Shown here: positions 7,252 through 56,890 of the stretch, one piece after another
Layout of the letters: every line of letters starts with the position of its first letter
Numbering within the stretch: the first letter of the stretch is position 1
NCBI GenBank assembly: GCA_951799405.1
Contig: OX637353.1
Location: 16,430,001-16,494,000 of the forward strand
Reading direction: 5' to 3'
DNA length: 64,000 nucleotides
DNA from: Agapetus fuscipes
Lineage: Eukaryota; Arthropoda; Insecta; Trichoptera; Glossosomatidae
The notes under the pieces: generated by a model
Seen by the model: the letters and a program-made list of their open reading frames with translations, nothing else
Databases searched by the model: none
Told to the model about the DNA's origin: nothing
Position numbers and translations under genes: made by a program

Positions 7252-8129
7252 GTGGCGCCAACATTTCATGGGCGACCTCCTGCGTGGGCAGGGACGTGCA
7301 GGGCGCTGAGACAAGCAGTGAGGAGACACGCACATGATGGGACATGTACCTAACTGCCTAGTGGCGCCAACATTTCATGGGCGACCTCCTGCGTGGGCAG
7401 GGACGTGCAGGGCGCTGAGACAAGCAGTGAGGAGACACGCACATGATGGGACATATGTCCAACTGCCTAGTGGCGCCAACATTTCATGGGCGACCTCCTG
7501 CGTGGGCAGGGACGTGCAGGGCGCTGAGACTACGCAGTGAGGAGACACGCACATGATGGGACATATGTCCAACTGCCTAGTGGCGCCAACATTTCATGGG
7601 CGACCTCCTGCGTGGGCAGGGACGTGCAGGGCGCTGATACTACGCAGTGAGGAGACACGCACATGATGGGACATATGTCCAACTGCCTAGTGGCGCCAAC
7701 ATTTCATGGGCGACCTCCTGCGTGGGCAGGGACGTGCAGGGCGCTGAGACTACGCAGTGAGGAGACACGCACATGATGGGACATATGTCCAACTGCCTAG
7801 TGGCGCCAACATTTCATGGGCGACCTCCTGCGTGGGCAGGGACGTGCAGGGCGCTGAGACTACGCAGTGAGGAGACACGCACATGATGGGACATATGTCC
7901 AACTGCCTAGTGGCGCCAACATTTCATGGGCGACCTCCTGCGTGGGCAGGGACGTGCAGGGCGCTGAGACTACGCAGTGAGGAGACACGCACATGATGGG
8001 ACATATGTCCAACTGCCTAGTGGCGCCAACATTTCATGGGCGACCTCCTGCGTGGGCAGGGACGTGCAGGGCGCTGAGACTACGCAGTGAGGAGACACGC
8101 ACATGATGGGACATGTACCTAACTGCCCA
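7252..8129. repeat. 110-bp minisatellite, 8 units
   Basis: GTGGCGCCAACATTTCATGG recurs at 7252, 7361, 7470, 7580, 7690, 7800, 7910 and 8020, so the period is 109-110. Units are nearly identical. The first two and the last have edge variants (ATGTACCTAACTGCC instead of ATATGTCCAACTGCC). GC content is well above the flanks. Minus-strand ORFs in the array are a by-product of stop-free repeats. Confidence 0.95.
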
Positions 8130-17356: not shown

Positions 17357-18662
17357 ATGAGTAAACCGCCTGATATTGAGAATCCAATGCCACCTGACAG
17401 GGTCTCAGCCAAGAGGAAAAAAGTAGATTTATCAAATATGAGTGATGGCCCGGCGTCTTCGGAGTCCGCTGAGCAGCCAGGAGTGTCTGCTGGCGAGGGA
17501 AGCTACCCTCCCACGGCCCTTCCACCTTTTATAGTAACGGTAGAGAGCACTACAAAGGGGAAAAGAGTGCACCCCATGGTGTTGGGGAATATTCTTTCTA
17601 AGACCAAAATGGAAGGTATAACTTCTGGTGGAGTGAAGGCGGATGGAGGTCGCAGAATCACAGTATCCTTTTCAACTACAAAGCACGCAAATCTATTTTT
17701 AAAATCGGAAGTGCTATCTATCAACAATCTGAAAGCATACATCCCAAGCTATAGGCTTTATAAAAGTGGTCTCATCAGAGGAATCCCCACAGACCTAACG
17801 AGTGAGGACGTTTGCGGGGGTATTGAAGTTCCATCATCATGTGGCAAGGTCGTTAAGATGAGACGCCTCAATAGAAGAACAACCATTGACGGAAAAACGG
17901 AGTGGGTACCTTCAACTACTGTCCTTTTAACATTTGAAGGTCAAAGTCTCCCAGAACATGTCTACCTTTTTTACAATTCAATAAAAGTAGAATTATACGT
18001 TCCTCCATCCTATATCTGCCATAAATGCCTAAGATATGGGCACACCCATAAATTTTGCCAAAATTTACCAAGATGTGCGAAATGCGGCGAAGGTCACGAA
18101 AGTGCTACCTGTAACAATACAAATGATACCCACCCAACAATATGTGTGAACTGTAAAAGGAGAACACGCATCTACAAGCATCTCATGTCCGGAGCTACAG
18201 AGGCAAAAGGGCATAAGGCACATTATGGCATCTGAGGGAATCTCCTTTATTCAGGCTTCCCAAAAAACACTCCCATTAAAAAAAACATTTAGCGAAGCAG
18301 TCTCTGCCCAAGCTGGCCACAAAAAAACAATATTTCAGAAACCGAAACAACACTCATTTCGCTCAAATATAGACCACATAGACCACGATGCTATTAAAAC
18401 TCTTTTGATGTACCCAAATGGACAGCTACATTCCTCAAAAAATGGCTGTGGTCTACCCACCACAAGGAGTGAAGCTCCCAACACCTCACCTTCATCATCT
18501 ACAAATCTGCCAATTCCCGAACTCCTACAAAACTCACAGATTATTAAGCTGATGTCCCAAATTTTTACTTACCTTTTGACAAATATTAACAGTGATTCTC
18601 CACTTGACATTATACCTTCCTCTGCAATTAAATCTGGATCTGACTCCACTGTACAGAAATGA
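17357..18662 (+). pseudogene. LINE ORF1 (gag-like nucleic-acid-binding protein), frameshifted
   Basis: ORF1 proteins of this type bind element RNA. The first frame (17357-18235) gives 292 residues. It has a basic N terminus (AKRKKVDL) and a central RNA-binding-like region with RGIPTDLTSEDV. The zinc knuckles are C221-C234 (CHKCLRYGHTHKFC), C240-C252 (CAKCGEGHESATC) and the start of a third (CVNC, 263-266). The third knuckle breaks at an AAAA run (18155-18158). In the next frame it continues GEHASTSISCPELQ and then MASEGISFIQAS to the stop at 18660-18662. One extra A therefore explains the break; the intact form would be about 434 residues. The stop overlaps the ORF2 start as ATGA. Confidence 0.88.
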
Positions 18663-21600
18663 ATAGATCCAATAGAGTCATCTCTGTTCTACAGTGGAAT
18701 GCACGTAGTGCTATAAGCAATAAACCAGATATTTTATACCTTTTAAACAATCACAAAATTCAAATTGCCGCAATATCAGAAACCTGGATAAGGCCACACT
18801 TCACCTTCAATATACCAGGGTATTCGTGTGTAAGGTGCGATAGAATGGAGGGAAGGGGGGGTGGGGCAGCACTGCTGGTGTGTTCAGCCCTCACTTTCAC
18901 ACAAATTAGCTTACCTTACAATCCACTTCTAGAAGTTGTTGCCATAATAGTAAACAACATAGGATTTGTTTCCCTGTATATCCCTCCGGATACTGGATTT
19001 GATAAATATTACTGGGATTCTATAATCCATCTTCTCCCCCCCTCTTTCTTCCTCCTTGGAGATTTTAACGCGCATAGCCCAGTATGGGGCTGCCATAATA
19101 CAAATAGTGCAGGAAACCGACTGTTAAACTTTATTGATGCCCATGACATGTGCATCCTTAATGATGGCTCTGCTACTAGGCTGGCACCAGCGAACCAGAA
19201 TCAAAGTGCGCTGGACCTGTCCCTATGCACTAAAGAGCTGGCGAGCATCGTGGATTGGATGATAACATACGACTCATTATCCAGTGATCACTTCCCTATA
19301 ATCTTATCTATTAGGACAAACTCTTATCATGACACCTCAAAGAGCTACCGAAGCCTTTACAACATACACAAGGCTGACTGGGGTAGGTTTATAGAAACAT
19401 TGGAGAGTGAGATCAGCAATATTGAAAAGTCTTTCAACAAAAATGCTTCTGTTCAAAATAACTACAATAACTTCTTTCAAATAATCCAAAAGGCAGCTGA
19501 TGAAGCAATTCCTAAGAAAACAGGAGGTATGAAGCCAAGAAAATACACTCCATGGTGGGATGGGGAGTGTGATCAATTGATTGAAACACGGAAAAAAGCT
19601 ATGCTGAAATATAAATTAGATATGTCTATGGAGAACTTCCTGGATGCAAAAGCCGTTCAAGCTAAAACCAAAAAAATACTGAGACAGAAGAAACGAGATG
19701 GGTGGAGTAAATTTTGCTCCTCTCTATCCCCAAATTCACCTTCATCATACGTATGGAATATGATTAAACGTTTTAGAGGCTCAATGGTTCCCCCTCGCCA
19801 GCTCCAGCACACTAGTACGTGGCTACCGGAATTTGTTAGATCTCTGGCTCCACTGTACGTTCCAAACTCTACTGAGACACCCCTTGAGGCTCAGCCAATG
19901 GTTGTTGATAATAATATACACAAGATCAACGCTTTTACGTTGGACGAGCTTAAATTATCTCTGAGCAAGACTAAAAACTCTTCGCCCGGTCTTGATTTAA
20001 TCCCATACGCTGTCATAAGGAAACTTCCCGAGTCATATCTCAAATTTCTACTTAATATATACAATCAGACCTTATCTCAGGCTTCCATTCCCCATGAATG
20101 GAAGTACCAACTAGTTGTCCCAATCCCGAAACCAGGAAGAGATCCGACTCTTGGATCATCGTATCGGCCCATAGCATTGTCCTCCTGCATAGCGAAGGTA
20201 CTCGAGCACCTTATTAAAACACGGGTAGAATGGTTTTTGGAGAAGAATATTCTCCTGCCTAAATACCAATTCGGTTTCCGAAGGTCACTCAGCTGCATAG
20301 ATAATATATGTACCCTTGTTACAGATATCCAACTCGGGTTCTCTAAGAAAGAATTTGTTGTAGCAGCGTTTTTAGACATTGACGCCGCGTATGATAACGT
20401 CTGCCTCTATATGTTGTATAACAAACTAATAGAATTATCTATTCCAGTCCCTTTAGCAAAAGTAATATTTAACTTGTTAATTGATAGAAAAATTGTCGTT
20501 AAGAACGATCAAGAAGAAATTACTAGAACAACCTGGAAGGGTCTACCACAAGGCTCTGTGCTAAGCCCACTCCTCTTCAACGCATACTGCTATGACATCC
20601 AAAACGGCATGCACCAGGATTGCAACTTAATACAATATGCAGACGACATAGTCATGTACGCCGCAAATAAAAATATTGATAAAGCCGTTAACACATTATC
20701 CGTTTCGCTTAACAAACTAAACAACTGGTTATTAGCACATTCGCTGAACATTTCCCCGCATAAATCAAAGATTCTAGTTTTCTCCAGAAAACACAAGAAT
20801 CCAACTGTGTCAATCTACCTTAACGGTTTTCATATCCCCCAAGTTGAAGAGATAAAATTCCTGGGAGTCAACATAGATAGGAAATTATCTTGGGCACAAT
20901 TCATTAACTCAATAACGACTAAGTGCGAACAGAACACAAATATACTACGGGCAATTGCAGGGGTCTCGTGGGGCTCTCATCCATCCACCATGAGAAATAT
21001 ATACAACGCTCTGATTCGTTGCCATCTTGATTACGCCTGTTTTATATTAGATTCTCTCCCTATTCACCTGGAAACTAAACTGGAAAGAGTGCAGTCTAAA
21101 TGTCTTAGGCTTATTGTTGGCGCTATGCAGTCGACTCCTATCAATGCTCTACAAGTAGAATGTTGCGAGATGCCAATACCCATTAGGAGGCGATACCTTG
21201 CAGAGAGATTTCTTCTCAAACGCATAAGCTATCTCAACCATCCTCTCTTTAACAATATAGTCAAGTTAACACAATCTTATGACTCAAACAGATACTGGGC
21301 AAAAAAACGTAACCCTGTTTTATGTGTAGCGTATTCTACCATAACAAATACATATAAAGGACCTAAATTTCTCTTCCCTTCTCCCGTCTACAATGTGCCA
21401 ATCAAAGCTCTGCAAAAACTTCCCCACATTGTTGAAAACATTGGATTGAACAAGAGCTGCAATAAAGTTCATGAAGACTATAATGAGACATTCAACTCAT
21501 ATGTGAGAGAAAAATGGCCTGATCACACTCACATTTTTACAGACGGTTCTAAATTAACTCCAGACGGGAACAGTGGCTCTGCATTTGTAATCCCCATACT

Positions 21601-22420
21601 CGATATCGAGTCGGGATTCAAATTACCCCCGGAGGCCTCTGTCTACACGGCTGAATGTTTTGCCATGGAAAAAGCATTGCGCTCTTCTATAACATTAAAT
21701 GAACATCGCTTTATAATTTTCTCCGACTCCCTCTCCCTCATTAACTGCTTGGCATCTCCACTTTCCATATTTTCGAGGAACCAATTAATCATAAATATTC
21801 GCTTACTCCTGCTAAAACTTGAAGAAAGGGGCAAGGATGTGGTGATTGTGTGGATCCCTGCACACTGTGGGATTGAGGGAAATGAAAGGGCCGATTCCCT
21901 AGCCAAGCGGGCTGTTCAGCAAGGGAGTGCCCCGTCTGGATTTTCTATCCCAGAGAGCGACCAACTAAGGATCTTGGAGCGTGCCGCTGTTAGGAGGTGG
22001 AATGCCTCTTGGCATGGGAGCTCCAAGGGCCTCCGCTATAGAGGTGTTCAGGGAGCCATTCCATCTGGACCATGGTTTGCTGGAGCCAGACTGTCTAGAA
22101 ACCACATCACCATTATCTGTCGTATGCGCTTTGGACACGTCAGACTAAACAACCATTTGTTTAAGTTGGGGCTTGTCGAATCCCCGGACTGTGACTGCGG
22201 CCAAGATCTTGAAACTATAGATCATATTTTTTTTGGATGCCCCTTACGAGATGCATTAGATATTTATTTCAAATTCAAAAACATTTCATTTCCGGTAAAC
22301 ATAGAACACCTCTTGGCACTTAATTCCTCTAAAATTAATAGTATTGTAACGAAATACACTGGTAGATGTTTATTGGTGTACGTGTGTTTTGAGAGAATGT
22401 TCTGGCCCAGACGATTGTAA
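18659..22420 (+). CDS. LINE ORF2: endonuclease, reverse transcriptase, RNase H (3' end replaced by LTR)
   Basis: This is the enzyme that nicks target DNA and reverse-transcribes the LINE RNA. The endonuclease (about 1-215) shows N14, E41 (AISETW), GDFNAHSPVWG from 134 and SDHFPI (D210, H211). In RT (about 430-720), the palm has FLDIDAAYDN (D573), GLPQGSVLSPLLFN and YADD at 660-663. RNase H (about 957-1083) keeps the D-E-D-D set: D962 in TDGS, E999, D1023 in SDS and D1079 in GNERAD. A cysteine motif starts at C1178 (CDCGQDLETIDHIFFGC). The frame is open throughout. From residue 1229 on, the codons belong to the LTR. The original end resumes at 24963 and stops at 25000-25002, so the true protein was 1241 residues. 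Confidence 0.93.
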   Translation: MNRSNRVISVLQWNARSAISNKPDILYLLNNHKIQIAAISETWIRPHFTFNIPGYSCVRCDRMEGRGGGAALLVCSALTFTQISLPYNPLLEVVAIIVNNIGFVSLYIPPDTGFDKYYWDSIIHLLPPSFFLLGDFNAHSPVWGCHNTNSAGNRLLNFIDAHDMCILNDGSATRLAPANQNQSALDLSLCTKELASIVDWMITYDSLSSDHFPIILSIRTNSYHDTSKSYRSLYNIHKADWGRFIETLESEISNIEKSFNKNASVQNNYNNFFQIIQKAADEAIPKKTGGMKPRKYTPWWDGECDQLIETRKKAMLKYKLDMSMENFLDAKAVQAKTKKILRQKKRDGWSKFCSSLSPNSPSSYVWNMIKRFRGSMVPPRQLQHTSTWLPEFVRSLAPLYVPNSTETPLEAQPMVVDNNIHKINAFTLDELKLSLSKTKNSSPGLDLIPYAVIRKLPESYLKFLLNIYNQTLSQASIPHEWKYQLVVPIPKPGRDPTLGSSYRPIALSSCIAKVLEHLIKTRVEWFLEKNILLPKYQFGFRRSLSCIDNICTLVTDIQLGFSKKEFVVAAFLDIDAAYDNVCLYMLYNKLIELSIPVPLAKVIFNLLIDRKIVVKNDQEEITRTTWKGLPQGSVLSPLLFNAYCYDIQNGMHQDCNLIQYADDIVMYAANKNIDKAVNTLSVSLNKLNNWLLAHSLNISPHKSKILVFSRKHKNPTVSIYLNGFHIPQVEEIKFLGVNIDRKLSWAQFINSITTKCEQNTNILRAIAGVSWGSHPSTMRNIYNALIRCHLDYACFILDSLPIHLETKLERVQSKCLRLIVGAMQSTPINALQVECCEMPIPIRRRYLAERFLLKRISYLNHPLFNNIVKLTQSYDSNRYWAKKRNPVLCVAYSTITNTYKGPKFLFPSPVYNVPIKALQKLPHIVENIGLNKSCNKVHEDYNETFNSYVREKWPDHTHIFTDGSKLTPDGNSGSAFVIPILDIESGFKLPPEASVYTAECFAMEKALRSSITLNEHRFIIFSDSLSLINCLASPLSIFSRNQLIINIRLLLLKLEERGKDVVIVWIPAHCGIEGNERADSLAKRAVQQGSAPSGFSIPESDQLRILERAAVRRWNASWHGSSKGLRYRGVQGAIPSGPWFAGARLSRNHITIICRMRFGHVRLNNHLFKLGLVESPDCDCGQDLETIDHIFFGCPLRDALDIYFKFKNISFPVNIEHLLALNSSKINSIVTKYTGRCLLVYVCFERMFWPRRL
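22341..22344 (+). repeat. LTR element target duplication, left (GTAT)
   Basis: GTAT precedes the 5' LTR and recurs at 24959-24962 after the 3' LTR. Removing the element and one copy restores the ORF2 frame, which supports the call. Four to six bp is usual for integrase-mediated insertion. Confidence 0.9.
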
Positions 22421-22798
22421 TTGTAAGGTGTGTATGTAGGTAGGAAATGGACTCTTCATGAAATAAATATGTCCAGAATCGTCTATACAACTGTGGTAGT
22501 GGAAGTTTCTAGGGCAGGCTGGAATGGCCCCTAGGTTCCGCTATAAGAAGGGCGACAATGGGCTGAAGCGGGTCAGTCTTCGAAGCACTCACACAGAGGA
22601 GTATCTAGTTGCCAGGGCGACCAATAAGGTGTAAAATAAATGTAATCTGTACGAAATAAATAAGTGTGTTAAAATAAATCTGTTAGAATAAGTCTGTTAA
22701 AAATAAATCTATTGTAAGAAAGTCTGTGTAAATAAACTGTATGGCTAACTTGTGTTAAACTTGTGTTTTAATTAAAAGAACCCAGGAAAAACGTAACA
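22345..22798 (+). repeat. 5' LTR
   Basis: It is 454 bp, TG...CA, with near-inverted ends (TGTAACG / CGTAACA). Several AATAAA words lie in the second half (first at 22635-22640). By eye it is identical to 24505-24958. Its first 76 bases are translated as the false C terminus of LINE ORF2. Confidence 0.95.
22541..22577 (+). promoter_or_regulatory. LTR core promoter (TATA box and TCAGT initiator)
   Basis: TATAAG at 22542-22547 is followed by TCAGT at 22573-22577, putting the initiator A 33 bases downstream of the first T. TCAGT is the classical arthropod initiator. This would set the U3/R border near 22574. The same pair occurs at 24702 and 24733 in the 3' LTR, where it could drive downstream sequence. 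Confidence 0.65.
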
Positions 22799-22799
22799 G

Positions 22800-22815
22800 T
22801 GGTGTCCGGTGCATC
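22800..22815 (+). other. Primer-binding site
   Basis: TGGTGTCCGGTGCATC starts two bases after the LTR end with TGG, the complement of a tRNA CCA terminus. The tRNA is not identified. The site overlaps the open reading frame of the gag-like part. Confidence 0.7.
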
Positions 22816-23079
22816 AAGGACCTCAAAGTCTATGAGCTTAAGAATGAGCTTCTGGAGAGGGACCTGGAGACCTCAGGAGGGAAGGCGGCCTTACAGGCAC
22901 GCCTCATGGAGGCCTTGGAACAGTCAGGCGAAGACCCGGCATATTTTGTCATGGCGTCTGGAGGGGACCGCGAGCGAGCCGTGGAAGAGTTTAAAACAAA
23001 GATGGCTGCCAACTTCAAGAGCTTGAGGGAAGACCTAGCTGGTTGGAAGGAGGAGAGGGCTAAAAACCTAGCCTTAAAA
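22801..23079 (+). CDS. SAP-domain gag-like N-terminal module of the LTR element
   Basis: In frame with the downstream ORF, 22813-22920 reads IKDLKVYELKNELLERDLE, then TSGGKAALQARLMEALEQSG, a complete SAP helix-loop-helix with the conserved L, G and K positions. A charged, probably coiled stretch follows (AVEEFKTKMAANFKSLREDL). SAP-like N termini are known in gag proteins of several invertebrate LTR elements, so I read this as the element's own remnant. The first in-frame ATG (22906) lies inside the SAP fold and the frame is open back to 22759 without an ATG. Initiation therefore requires a non-AUG codon, splicing or a lost start. Confidence 0.6.
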
Positions 23080-24504
23080 ATGTCGGTGGACACTGATAGT
23101 GTAAAATTAAGTGATAATCAGGATGACAAAAAGGCCGATATGTCAACTGAGGATGAGTCGTCTCAGAAGTTGGGGAAGGGAGACCTGAAGGCCAAAAACA
23201 ACGGCCAGCTTAAGGCTGAGGACGCAGCTGACAGCAAAGATGACAAAGATGATGTCAAGTCGGCTGAAAACGGCAAGAGTGACTCGGCCGAGGTGAAGGC
23301 TGACAAGGATGCGAAGGAGGAGACGGACGCCAAGGAGGAGGATGAGGACGCCAAGGACAAGAAGGGCAAGCCCAAGAAGGCCAACAGTGTGAAGAAGAAG
23401 CCCGCGCCCAAGAAGAAGGTGGAGGAGGCCGTGGAGGAGGCTCTCAAGAAGAAGAAGGCCGTGGAGCCGCCGGTGCCCGTGCCCGCGGGCCGGGGCATCC
23501 CCATCGACCACATCCCCGACGTGGAGGTGGCCATCTCCAGGTTCAAGATGGAGGACCTCAAGTTCCGGTACAATCAATTGTGCCGCACGAACCTCATCAA
23601 GCGCAACAAAAAGAAGTTCAAGGGCTACGAGTTTGAGAAGGACACGCCTGAGCACAAGGCCAAGCTGGAGGAGGTGCAGAAGCTGAAGCCCAAGCAGCTG
23701 CGGACGCTGTGTGAGAAGCTGGGCTTGGACAAGAGGGGCGCGCCCACGGAGCTGGCCAGCAGGGTGGTGGGCTTCCTGCTGCTGCCAAAGCAGGTCTCCT
23801 CGCACGCCAGGGGGCTGATGAAGGAGAGGCCGGTGACTGACCGCGGCGAGGCCACGGGAGGCAGGCCCAGAAGGTCCGCTGCTGCTATTGTCAAGAGAGG
23901 TTACTCTAACGAGGAGTATGAAACAGATCCGGAAACCAAAGTGCGGGGATCCAAAGTCAGCAGGGATGAATTAGGGGATTCAGATGGCTCGTACAACCCG
24001 AGTGGCTCCGGACAGGAGGCGGACTCTGACTTTGACCCGTCAGTGGGGGAGGGGGGCGCTCCCTCCCGCAGGCGCCGCGCCCCCGCCCGCAGGGGCTCAG
24101 CCAAGCAGAGCAAGCAGAAGGGACGACCCAAGCATGGCGCGGCAGGAAGCCACTCAGCGAGTCAGAGGACGAGAGCGAGAGTGAGAACTTCGCTTCCGAG
24201 CAGGAGAGCGGCTCCGACAAACAAGGATTCTGATCCTTTGACGCCGGCGAGCAAGCGGGGCCTAGGAGCGGTGGCCGCCCGGGGACGCAAAGCGGTGCCC
24301 CCAGCCAAGGAAAGGCGCCCATACCGGCCGCCAAGAGGAAAGCACCCCCCCCCACACCAGCCAGCAATGACGGGCAAAACCCTAAGGGGAAAATTCCGTG
24401 GAACGTCATTTTTCCTGACCACTGGATGCAACTGTGGGTCAAACTGCCCGTACCTTCTTAAAGAAAAGACTGTTCCGGGGCGGAACAGTCTAAGGGGGGG
24501 ATAA
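22906..24504 (+). CDS. Gag-DEK-like fusion ORF (captured host chromatin gene)
   Basis: DEK is a nuclear DNA- and histone-binding protein. From the ATG at 23080 the ORF turns acidic, then lysine-rich (GKPKKANSVKKKPAPKKK). It then enters a DEK-type core: GIPIDHIPDVEVAISRFK, FKGYEFEKDTPEHKAK, and a SAP/SAF-box part KLKPKQLRTLCEKLGLDKRG with FLLLPKQ. Arg-Arg-Ser and Asp-Ser linkers follow, as in DEK. At about 24135-24143 the frame slips: the next frame continues RKPLSESEDESESENFASEQ, a DEK-like acidic tract, then meets TGA at 24231 and ends at 24461. The listed frame runs to TAA at 24502, just before the LTR, with unnatural composition. The DEK C-terminal domain is not seen. High GC and CpG set it apart from its surroundings. 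Confidence 0.8.
   Translation: MEALEQSGEDPAYFVMASGGDRERAVEEFKTKMAANFKSLREDLAGWKEERAKNLALKMSVDTDSVKLSDNQDDKKADMSTEDESSQKLGKGDLKAKNNGQLKAEDAADSKDDKDDVKSAENGKSDSAEVKADKDAKEETDAKEEDEDAKDKKGKPKKANSVKKKPAPKKKVEEAVEEALKKKKAVEPPVPVPAGRGIPIDHIPDVEVAISRFKMEDLKFRYNQLCRTNLIKRNKKKFKGYEFEKDTPEHKAKLEEVQKLKPKQLRTLCEKLGLDKRGAPTELASRVVGFLLLPKQVSSHARGLMKERPVTDRGEATGGRPRRSAAAIVKRGYSNEEYETDPETKVRGSKVSRDELGDSDGSYNPSGSGQEADSDFDPSVGEGGAPSRRRRAPARRGSAKQSKQKGRPKHGAAGSHSASQRTRARVRTSLPSRRAAPTNKDSDPLTPASKRGLGAVAARGRKAVPPAKERRPYRPPRGKHPPPHQPAMTGKTLRGKFRGTSFFLTTGCNCGSNCPYLLKEKTVPGRNSLRGG
24469..24489 (+). other. Perfect hairpin just upstream of the polypurine tract
   Basis: ACTGTTCCG and CGGAACAGT form a 9-bp stem with a GGG loop. 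It sits two bases before the TAAG that opens the polypurine tract. Its role is unknown; RNA packaging, processing or strand transfer are all possible. Confidence 0.7.
24492..24501 (+). other. Polypurine tract
   Basis: AAGGGGGGGA lies three bases before the 3' LTR, the expected place for plus-strand priming. Confidence 0.85.
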
Positions 24505-24958
24505 TGTAACGAAATACACTGGTAGATGTTTATTGGTGTACGTGTGTTTTGAGAGAATGTTCTGGCCCAGACGATTGTAATTGTAAGGTGTGTATGTAGG
24601 TAGGAAATGGACTCTTCATGAAATAAATATGTCCAGAATCGTCTATACAACTGTGGTAGTGGAAGTTTCTAGGGCAGGCTGGAATGGCCCCTAGGTTCCG
24701 CTATAAGAAGGGCGACAATGGGCTGAAGCGGGTCAGTCTTCGAAGCACTCACACAGAGGAGTATCTAGTTGCCAGGGCGACCAATAAGGTGTAAAATAAA
24801 TGTAATCTGTACGAAATAAATAAGTGTGTTAAAATAAATCTGTTAGAATAAGTCTGTTAAAAATAAATCTATTGTAAGAAAGTCTGTGTAAATAAACTGT
24901 ATGGCTAACTTGTGTTAAACTTGTGTTTTAATTAAAAGAACCCAGGAAAAACGTAACA
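24505..24958 (+). repeat. 3' LTR
   Basis: Same length and, by eye, same sequence as 22345-22798. It is followed by the second GTAT (24959-24962) and the last 40 bases of LINE ORF2. Confidence 0.95.
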
Positions 24959-24962
24959 GTAT

Positions 24963-27691: not shown

Positions 27692-28203
27692 TGACGTCAC
27701 TCCGCCGCGCTTGATGGAGTGCTGCTGCTGCTCCTCCTGTGTCTCCACCTCCTGCAGATCTCCCCGACTTCCCGTGACTTGCCGCAGTTCCGTGACGTCA
27801 CTCCGCCGCGCTTGATGGAGTGCTGCTGCTGCTCCTCCTGTGTCTCCACCTCCTGCAGATCTCCCGACTTCCCGTGACTTGCCGCAGTTCCGTGACGTCA
27901 CTCCGCCGCGCTTGATGGAGTGCTGCTGCTGCTCCTCCTGTGTCTCCACCTCCTGCAGATCTCCCGACTTCTCGTGACTTGCCGCAGTTCCGTGACGTCA
28001 CTCCGCCGCGCTTGATGGAGTGCTGCTGCTGCTCCTCCTGTGTCTCCACCTCCTGCAGATCTCCCGACTTCCCGTGACTTGCCGCAGTTCCGTGACGTCA
28101 CTCCGCCGCGCTTGATGGAGTGCTGCTGCTGCTCCTCCTGTGTCTCCACCTCCTACAGATCTCCCCGACTTCCCGTGATTTGCCGCAGTTCCGTGACGTC
28201 ACG
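27692..28203. repeat. 100-bp satellite, 5 units, each with a TGACGTCA box
   Basis: TGACGTCA starts units at 27692, 27793, 27893, 27993 and 28093, with a sixth box at 28194. Period 100-101. Each unit also has a CTGCTGCTGCTCCTCCTG run and CTCCACCTCCTGCAGATC. Units differ by a few bases. Minus-strand ORFs of 83-99 residues are artefacts of the array. Confidence 0.95.
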
Positions 28204-52509: not shown

Positions 52510-52895
52510 AGGCTAGTTCGGACAAGGCGACTATTTTAGTCGAGTAGCGAGTAATTTAGTGGCTAAACGTGTGCGAACCACAAAAAATTAGTCGAGTAGT
52601 TTATTCAATGGTTTAGTCGAGTCGATCCATTTCACTCTATTTTTTCGGGCGAGTAGCGCCCCCCACCACCGTCCGTGGCCGAGTGTGGCCGAGTAGCCAC
52701 GGACAAGTCCGAGTCCGAGTGGGATCCGACATCCGACGGGAATCCGAGCGGGATCTGAGATCCGACACCCGACAAGTTCCCACTTGTCGGGTGTCGGATC
52801 CGTATATTAATCGGAGGTTCGAGTTGCAGAACATTTCGGACAAAATCGGTTTCCGACAAGTGTGAATAGCTCCATACATAATGTTCTGCCACTGG
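52510..52895. mobile_element. MITE fragments next to the gap
   Basis: GGCTAGTTCGGACAAGGCGA after CTTAA looks like a TIR-element end with repeated TAGTCGAGTAG words. From 52740 the sequence matches the palindromic MITE at 3902-4083 (CCACTTGTCGGGTGTCGG, TCCATACATAATGTTCTG) and is cut by the gap. Confidence 0.5.
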
Positions 52896-53095
52896 NNNNN
52901 NNNNNNNNNNNNNNNNNNNNNNNNNNNNNNNNNNNNNNNNNNNNNNNNNNNNNNNNNNNNNNNNNNNNNNNNNNNNNNNNNNNNNNNNNNNNNNNNNNNN
53001 NNNNNNNNNNNNNNNNNNNNNNNNNNNNNNNNNNNNNNNNNNNNNNNNNNNNNNNNNNNNNNNNNNNNNNNNNNNNNNNNNNNNNNNNNNNNNNN
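52896..53095. other. Assembly gap (200 N)
   Basis: Exactly 200 N, so probably a placeholder of unknown true size. The flanking palindromic MITE may have caused the break. Confidence 0.98.
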
Positions 53096-53860
53096 GTTGA
53101 TCCTGTGAGCGCGGGATGTTGAGCTCCGTGAGCAACGGTCGTGAGCACGCTGTTAGCAGACACATCGTAATCTCAATAGCAAACAACAATATCATCACGC
53201 ACGTCACAAATAATACATCAGCCTGGAAGACAGGTGGACAACAACTCTGGGAAGTCGTTTCCAAATATGTAAAAACAACGCAGACACATACAAATAATAA
53301 GATGACCTCAACCCCGGGAACAGTAGCGCGCATCCGTGTGTTTGGTGGCATGAGGGAGACTGAAGAGCATGGAAATCATAATTATTGCATGAGAATCTGA
53401 ACGTCAGTGATTGAGTGTAGAACTCCACTAGTTCTTATTGTGTGTGTATAACTTGAAAACGCACTGTTCTAGATCTGGTCGTATAGCACCACATTATTTT
53501 ACTGTATGCAACACTTCATAAAAATAAAAAATAGCATGTCCGGTCATGCAAATACGACGGGGAAATCAAACAACTGAATGATGGAGGCAGCAGCGTGGGA
53601 GGAGGGGGAGAAGCCCTGCAGGGACAGAGGAAGCCCCACACGCCCCCTCCCAGGCGGGGAGCAGCTTCAGCTGGTGACGAGGTGCGAGGGGCCAGCACAG
53701 TAACGAGATTAAGGCATAAGCCCTCAAGGAGCAAGGTCGCCTGGACTCACAACACGCGAGCAGGTAACAAGAACAGAGAGCAAGCAGGAGCCTAGGAGCT
53801 GGCATCTGCCCAAGGCAAGCAGACGACGTCAACGGGAATCTTACAATGCGTGTAGGTGGC
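53096..53860. other. Unassigned sequence, GC-rich at 53580-53820
   Basis: ORFs on both strands overlap in the GC-rich part, which suggests composition rather than a gene. No domain seen. Confidence 0.4.
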
Positions 53861-54779: not shown

Positions 54780-55115
54780 AGGTTCATCCAGTCTTACAAC
54801 AAATGGGTCTTGCTTGAAAAACTAGCGTTCACTAGCGACGAATGGTCACGTTATCTATAGACCGAATAAACTAGCGTTCACTAGCGACGAATGGTCACGT
54901 TATCTATAGACCGAATAAACTAGCGTTCACTAGCGACGAATGGTCACGTTATCTATAGACCGAATAAACTAGCGTTCACTAGCGACGAATGGTCACGTTA
55001 TCTATAGACCGAATAAACTAGCGTTCACTAGCGACGAATGGTCACGTTATCTATAGACCGAATAAACTAGCGTTCACTAGCGACGAATGGTCACGTTATC
55101 TATAGACCGAATAAA
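54780..55115. repeat. 49-bp minisatellite (6 units) grown from SINE C
   Basis: ACTAGCGTTCACTAGCGACG recurs at 54821, 54870, 54919, 54968, 55017 and 55066. Just before the first unit, GGTTCATCCAGTCTTACAAC and TGGGTCTTGCTTGA are SINE C. The unit start is the mutated SINE C segment (GGCGCTTTGTAGCGACGA), so the array arose inside the SINE. Confidence 0.9.
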
Positions 55116-56108: not shown

Positions 56109-56890
56109 GAGCCTTTCGTTACGGCTACAGCTGTCAGGGGCTGCCTCATCACCTTGGAAATATGGTGGACAGCTGACCTGCCTGCAAGTGGCAGCTGACC
56201 TGCCTGCAAGTGACAGCTGACCTGCCTGCAAGTGGCAGCTGACCTGCCTGCAAGTGACAGCTGACCTGCCTGCAAGTGACAGCTGACCTGCCTGCAAGTG
56301 GCAGCTGACCTGCCTGCAAGTGACAGCTGACCTGCCTGCAAGTGACAGCTGACCTGCCTGCAAGTGGCAGCTGACCTGCCTGCAAGTGGCAGCTGATCTG
56401 CCTGCAAGTGACAGCTGACCTGCCTGCAAGTGGCAGCTGACCTGCCTGCAAGTGACAGCTGACCTGCCTGCAAGTGACAGCTGACCTGCCTGCAAGTGAC
56501 AGCTGACCTGCCTGCAAGTGACAGCTGACCTGCCTGCAAGTGACAGCTGACCTGCCTGCAAGTGACAGCTGACCTGCCTGCAAGTGACAGCTGACCTGCC
56601 TGACCTGCCTGCAAGTGCCTGCAAGAGCCTTTCGTTACGGCTACAGCTGTCAGGGGCTGCCTCATCACCTTGGAAATATGGTGGACAGCTGACCTGCCTG
56701 CAAGTGACAGCTGACCTGCCTGCAAGTGGCAGCTGACCTGCCTGCAAGTGACAGCTGACCTGCCTGCAAGTGACAGCTGACCTGCCTGCAAGTGACAGCT
56801 GACCTGCCTGCAAGTGACAGCTGACCTGCCTGCAAGTGACAGCTGACCTGCCTGCAAGTGACAGCTGACCTGCCTGCAAGCGTCAGCTGG
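56109..56890. repeat. 22-bp minisatellite in two blocks (20 and 9 units)
   Basis: CAGCTGACCTGCCTGCAAGT plus two bases repeats every 22 from 56170 to 56588 and from 56686 to 56862. Both blocks are preceded by the same roughly 60-bp segment (GAGCCTTTCGTTACGGCTAC... at 56112 and 56627), so the whole module was duplicated. Because 22 is not a multiple of 3 and no frame has a stop, minus-strand ORFs of 144, 293 and 352 residues appear; these are not genes. Confidence 0.95.

Follow-up and report, generated by a model that had tools for sequence, protein, structure and literature searches.

The window analysed here was a 64-kb stretch of DNA, C21:16430001-16494000 of a 618-Mb assembly, and a compact LTR retrotransposon was located on its plus strand at 22345-24958. 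The 5' LTR (22345-22798; 454 bp, TG...CA) and the 3' LTR (24505-24958) were identical, and the element was flanked by the target-site duplication (TSD) GTAT on the left (22341-22344) and on the right (24959-24962). Motif matches to TATAAG (about 22542), TCAGTC (about 22573) and AATAAA signals were detected inside the 5' LTR; we take these motifs to play their customary roles, TCAGTC being presumably an arthropod initiator-like sequence. A primer-binding-site (PBS)-like motif, TGGTGTCCGG, followed at 22800-22809, with TGGTGTCGG as its counterpart in other copies, and no tRNA gene was found in the 64-kb window. The polypurine tract (PPT) AAGGGGGGG was positioned at 24492-24500. The two LTRs, the short TSD, the PBS-like site and the PPT together identified the element as an LTR retrotransposon.

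The interior consisted of a single frame, 22801-24504, which was open from end to end. Its first part (22801-23072) was gag-like, with a SAP domain (E=2.5e-9, Pfam) and a coiled coil. The second part (23073-24360) was the captured cDNA of a host DEK gene, comprising exons 1-9 with 7 nt of 5' UTR and the start codon at 23080, and it included the DEK core (pseudo-SAP/SAP, 213 codons, 23422-24060), which carried a 4-codon in-frame deletion relative to the host gene and served for the codon comparisons below. The last part was a 3' tail (24361-24504) holding the stop codon (24502-24504). Protease, reverse transcriptase, RNase H and integrase domains were all missing from the frame of the window copy in the Pfam search, and this absence, together with the many copies in the genome, defined a non-autonomous LTR element. 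The first in-frame ATG of the window copy was at 22906, within the gag-like part, because the leader and the gag ATG had been deleted; both were retained by the other complete copies examined, L025, L029 and L026, where an AT-rich leader lay upstream of ATGGCTAAGGTGAACATCAAGG. The window copy is a deletion derivative. IMG/VR yielded no relative. The first-pass annotation had described the same LTR element without enzymes, and both points held; its further proposal of a SAP-domain gag-like start fused to DEK stood as regards the two similarities (SAP, and DEK at E=5.4e-13), but the window copy has lost the gag ATG and DEK_C is missing.

A LINE frame (18659-22420, plus strand) had received the insertion at its 3' end; this frame encoded a 1253-aa ORF2 with endonuclease, reverse transcriptase and RNase H, and its final residues were read from the LTR. 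The LINE ORF1 (17357-18235, plus strand) was CCHC-type by eye. Minisatellites with units of 22, 49, 100 and 110 bp were also present in the window at 56168-56889, 54819-55115, 27692-28202 and 7252-8114, respectively, their copies mostly matching at 97-100%. One frame (52632-53351) contained consecutive unknown residues, which reflect a stretch of N in the assembly.

DEK similarity and the host gene

DEK is a chromatin protein. In the element frame, DEK similarity began at the first Met of DEK, after the SAP/gag part, and human DEK chains (8kcy and 2jx3) matched with E=5.4e-13. Five protein relatives were retrieved from the database, all aligning as DEK, with local phmmer values of 6e-44 to 1e-55; four of them were named as coming from Phthorimaea, Scirpophaga, Danaus and Eumeta, two of these four moth and butterfly proteins carried the name Protein DEK, and the fifth bore no name. 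On these relatives, the host insect is probably a moth or something closely allied to moths. The core of the window copy was 55-58% identical to the four longer DEKs, which were 83-93% identical to one another. An old capture, suggested by these values, was abandoned once the divergent DEK of the host itself had been located. The acidic N-part and the SAP core were common to the element and the DEK proteins of human and insects, whereas the element differed from them in the absent DEK_C domain, the 4-codon core deletion, a rearranged tail and the gag part at its N-terminus. In the structure prediction of the fusion, the mean pLDDT was 51.8 and confidence was low outside the gag coiled coil and the DEK SAP box, the latter (about residues 283-326) reaching block means of 82-94.

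The host DEK gene was found on C11 by a DEK_C query (C11:946574-946729, minus strand, 94%), which matched only the host gene (one of two candidates). Host exon 1 lay near C11:960423-960374 and exons 1-9 reached C11:950038. Window 23073-24360 corresponded to the nine host exons in order with the introns missing, and AG/GT borders were present in the host at the exon joints of the match. Exon 1 agreed with the element at 48/50 aligned bases, starting at window 23073; exons 2-9 agreed at 92.1-97.3% of aligned bases with gaps left out, exon 3 having a 48-base gap, and around exon 5 the window copy shared 86% of residues with the host. The acidic 5' part of exon 4 and the exon 7/8 border were shortened in the element. 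The 3' boundary of exon 9 (host CACCAG, followed by gtacaa) was precisely where the match stopped, and no convincing match to the C11 host DEK loci was obtained for window 24361-24504. Relative to an identified parent gene, the introns had been lost, as in a retrocopy. Within the host locus (C11:945074-963229, L036-L039), core pieces were 53-70% identical to the DEK proteins P0003 and P0005, and the DEK_C exon was 96-100% identical to the four longer DEK relatives.

The comparison with the species' own DEK gene, which the first-pass annotation had proposed, supported its claim that an intronless host DEK had been transduced (92-97% of aligned bases), and the outcome that would have spoken against it, a DEK similarity confined to gag genes, did not occur. 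Because the host gene was matched exon by exon, it is very unlikely that the DEK-like stretch is a standard part of full-length gag-pol elements. Much of the element protein is rich in Lys and Glu, as would be expected of a chance low-complexity resemblance to DEK; nevertheless, nine host exons were matched at the DNA level, intron boundaries included, and this explanation, which is almost certainly wrong, was rejected. Another route to an intronless DEK part is a processed pseudogene, made by a LINE inside an LTR element and then spread with it; at least one LINE is nearby, as the host of this very insertion. Against this, the poly-A, the 3' UTR and DEK_C are all absent from the captured DEK, the copy does not extend beyond exon 9, it is placed between gag and the PPT with the tail following directly, and a target-site duplication of its own around the DEK part was not noticed. 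A LINE-made pseudogene was rejected as the main reading on the missing poly-A and the stop at exon 9, and is highly improbable.

Copy number, dispersal and subfamilies

Across the 618-Mb genome, a 22-nt pattern spanning the gag-DEK junction matched 292 places (146+146) with at most one mismatch, while the reversed pattern used as control gave 0+0; the 100 of the 292 places that were listed were all exact. A junction shared by 292 places therefore points to one capture that was amplified, and the suggestion of the first-pass annotation that the element had spread or could spread was borne out. The genome-wide LTR search that it had recommended for other copies returned 1088 candidates, of which 40 were scored, all given as 100% identical. 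The LTR matches on C2-C9 (18 of the 40 scored) lay within 2.2 kb of a listed junction in 18/18 cases. For the DEK-protein matches on C1 and C3-C10 (20 of the 67 scored), a junction was found within 2 kb in 17/20; the remaining three were at C1:18071619 (L030, with an older junction), C1:13745882 and C6:7463337. With P0003 as the DEK query, 1314 candidates were obtained, and the match was free of stops in 62 of the best 67, a count that concerns the best-scoring copies and hence a biased sample.

In the complete elements examined, the LTR pairs showed 0/453 mismatches (4/4) and 4-bp TSDs were present (4/4). The insertion of these four copies is therefore recent. A 202-kb sample of C1 contained one LTR of 94% identity (L003), a pair of LTR fragments 33-34 bases long (both in L018) and a decayed gag relative without DEK (L004). 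The LTR in L003 (4912-5357, minus strand) was flanked on either side by GTAT and had no partner LTR within its 10-kb locus; it is probably a solo LTR. Contig C1 itself began with CCTAA repeats, the insect telomere type.

Older and younger copies differed at the junction. The DEK part of the window element started 7 nt before the DEK start codon, compared with 11-15 nt in older copies, and the junction in the older copies L040 and L042 read ...GGAACAGAGCTCTTAAAAATG (GAACTC in L042) against ...CCCACAGAGCTCTTAAAAATG in the host. The capture thus began some 15 nt upstream of the ATG; were CCCACAG a splice site, the distance would be 11 nt. The young subfamily lacked, by in-frame deletion, a segment of the gag coiled coil that extended to the junction. 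Two older copies, L030 and L034, as well as L031, kept the host-like LHQF/LHKF stretch, which was gone from the other 7/10 copies, the window copy included, through a 12-nt in-frame deletion. The LTRs of L034 were about 92% identical to those of the window. In the old copy L030, exon 9 was followed by a differing 3' tail and then by a truncated, partial LTR at 77% (L041, 1-436), and this copy is possibly another recombinant. L031 (C20:11045700-11046850) was the sole aligned copy keeping 40 extra bases at the exon 7/8 border; it grouped with the young clade, in which inner support was weak, and may be a recombinant. In L024 (element C8:19538973-19542341), the basic C-terminal tail was tandemly duplicated in frame, a difference of 294 nt.

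Codon changes and indels in the gag-DEK frame

Between the host and 10 copies, dS was 0.14-0.17 and dN 0.006-0.036 over 212-218 core codons, and among the copies dS was 0-0.08. Fifteen synonymous changes and two replacements from the host were common to 10/10 copies, with five more sites changed in 9/10, and these common changes are consistent with one capture. However, one recent capture within the lineage does not simply predict a host-copy dS of 0.14-0.17 when the maximum among copies is 0.08. The 15 synonymous differences common to all copies, and a distance to the host about twice the deepest distance among copies, would suit a capture in a related species with the chimera arriving by horizontal transfer. 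The comparison covers 10 copies and older ones may be unsampled, and 3 replacements in 212 codons separate L030 from the host protein; an arrival by horizontal transfer is considered unlikely.

Codon comparisons among the copies were searched for strong purifying selection within the family, and none was found. The dN/dS ratios were 0.35-0.53 against L030, 0.91-1.62 for L034 against the other eight copies and 0.30-2.78 among the eight young copies, two pairs being undefined, and all three ranges are based on few changes. The stem of the young clade carried 6 replacement changes and 1 synonymous change, which became 7 and 3 when the stem shared with L034 was included; on the stems after the L030 split, constraint was therefore little.

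The indels presented another pattern. Events were separated by eye from the gap list, and with the indels private to L030/L040 left out, 12/13 in the frame were multiples of three (P=2e-5 against an expectation of one third), as were 8/9 outside the acidic repeats (P=1e-3). The single out-of-frame case among the 13 was a 40-nt difference where exons 7 and 8 meet. Among the indels private to the decayed copy L030/L040, 3/6 were in frame. Within triplet repeats, the in-frame bias could be mutational in origin. The frame was thus kept open, while the constraint on its amino acids looks weak.

Whether DEK does anything for the element was weighed on the same data. That DEK is functionless in the element, its frames being intact merely through the youth of the copies, has a probability somewhat short of even. 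The excess of replacement changes on the two stems and the pairwise dN/dS among young copies agree with this, as do the loss of DEK_C, a tail partly read in a shifted frame relative to the host, and a GC-rich sequence that is open in a second frame as well (141 aa); the multiples of three in 12/13 indels, some of them common to whole subfamilies, the stop-free matches in 62 of the best 67 scored copies and the in-frame young gag deletion upstream of the junction argue against it. It is rather doubtful that the fusion protein was retained as a chromatin or nucleic-acid tether for the RNA or cDNA of the element, or that the DEK copies feed small RNAs acting on host DEK. For the latter, Masc-derived copies in Plutella are described as feeding small RNAs that act on the host gene (PMC9674220).

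Proposed origin and relation to known systems

A non-autonomous LTR family was very probably born by capture of a spliced host DEK mRNA and was then amplified to about 292 copies. This proposal starts from observations: the LTR anatomy, an intron-bearing host gene, its intronless copy, a shared junction, the copy number and, in the four complete copies examined, recent insertion. For the steps between them we infer template switching, help in trans and translation of the fusion. The RNA of a SAP-gag element and a spliced DEK mRNA would have been packed in one particle. Minus-strand synthesis would begin at the PBS/R region of the element, cross into the DEK mRNA and return, the reverse-transcription steps following the known LTR cycle (PMC5408686). 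The resulting chimera would be laid out as LTR, PBS, leader, gag start, DEK (exons 1-9), tail, PPT and LTR, with full cis signals; for a random switch, a capture that stops precisely at the 3' boundary of exon 9 would be a coincidence. A related, enzyme-bearing element would supply reverse transcriptase and integrase in trans, and amplification may have proceeded via successive subfamilies with one long gag-DEK frame held open, perhaps because it is needed in cis, or merely because an open frame avoids RNA decay. Of the whole proposal, a role for translation of the fusion in the spread of the element is least certain.

Acute transforming retroviruses carry host cDNA in place of viral genes, often fused to gag, and depend on helpers. 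The DEK element, by contrast, shows no sign of env or of an infectious agent, and its family is scattered over an insect genome. To our knowledge, host-gene transduction by LTR elements is represented mostly by low-copy decayed retrocopies or by oncogenic retroviruses of vertebrates.

The mechanism itself is already known from LTR-mediated retroposition, Bs1 and Pxyfem. In LTR-mediated retroposition (Tan et al. 2016, as cited in PMC9674220 and PMC8232201), intronless chimeras with host mRNA are produced by template switching, as here; the DEK chimera went on to become a mobile family, about 292 copies strong, in which the gag-host frame is open. Pxyfem, the W-linked PxyMasc retrocopies of Plutella xylostella, is akin to the DEK element, since the cDNA of a moth gene is flanked by gag remnants of LTR elements; the authors could not identify its LTRs and its copies form tandem arrays (PMC9674220), whereas the LTRs, the TSDs and the host gene of the DEK element are known and its copies are dispersed. 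Maize Bs1 is likewise an LTR element with pieces of host genes, but according to PMC13317346 and PMC5408686 it holds pieces of three genes, unlike the DEK element. Among the papers listed by the literature searches, which covered titles and the openings of abstracts and lack most subscription journals, there was neither a DEK-bearing LTR element nor an insect LTR family in which a gag-host fusion reaches about 292 copies alongside the donor gene.

If the tether reading is true, a chromatin tether of host origin would have evolved in a non-autonomous element. Whether a domain taken from the host aids the spread of an element is testable in this system. Since the donor gene, the junction, old and young subfamilies and hundreds of young copies occur together in a single genome, the path between capture and amplification is open to direct testing. 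The family is thus a well-preserved example of a mobile element that has taken and multiplied a host gene.
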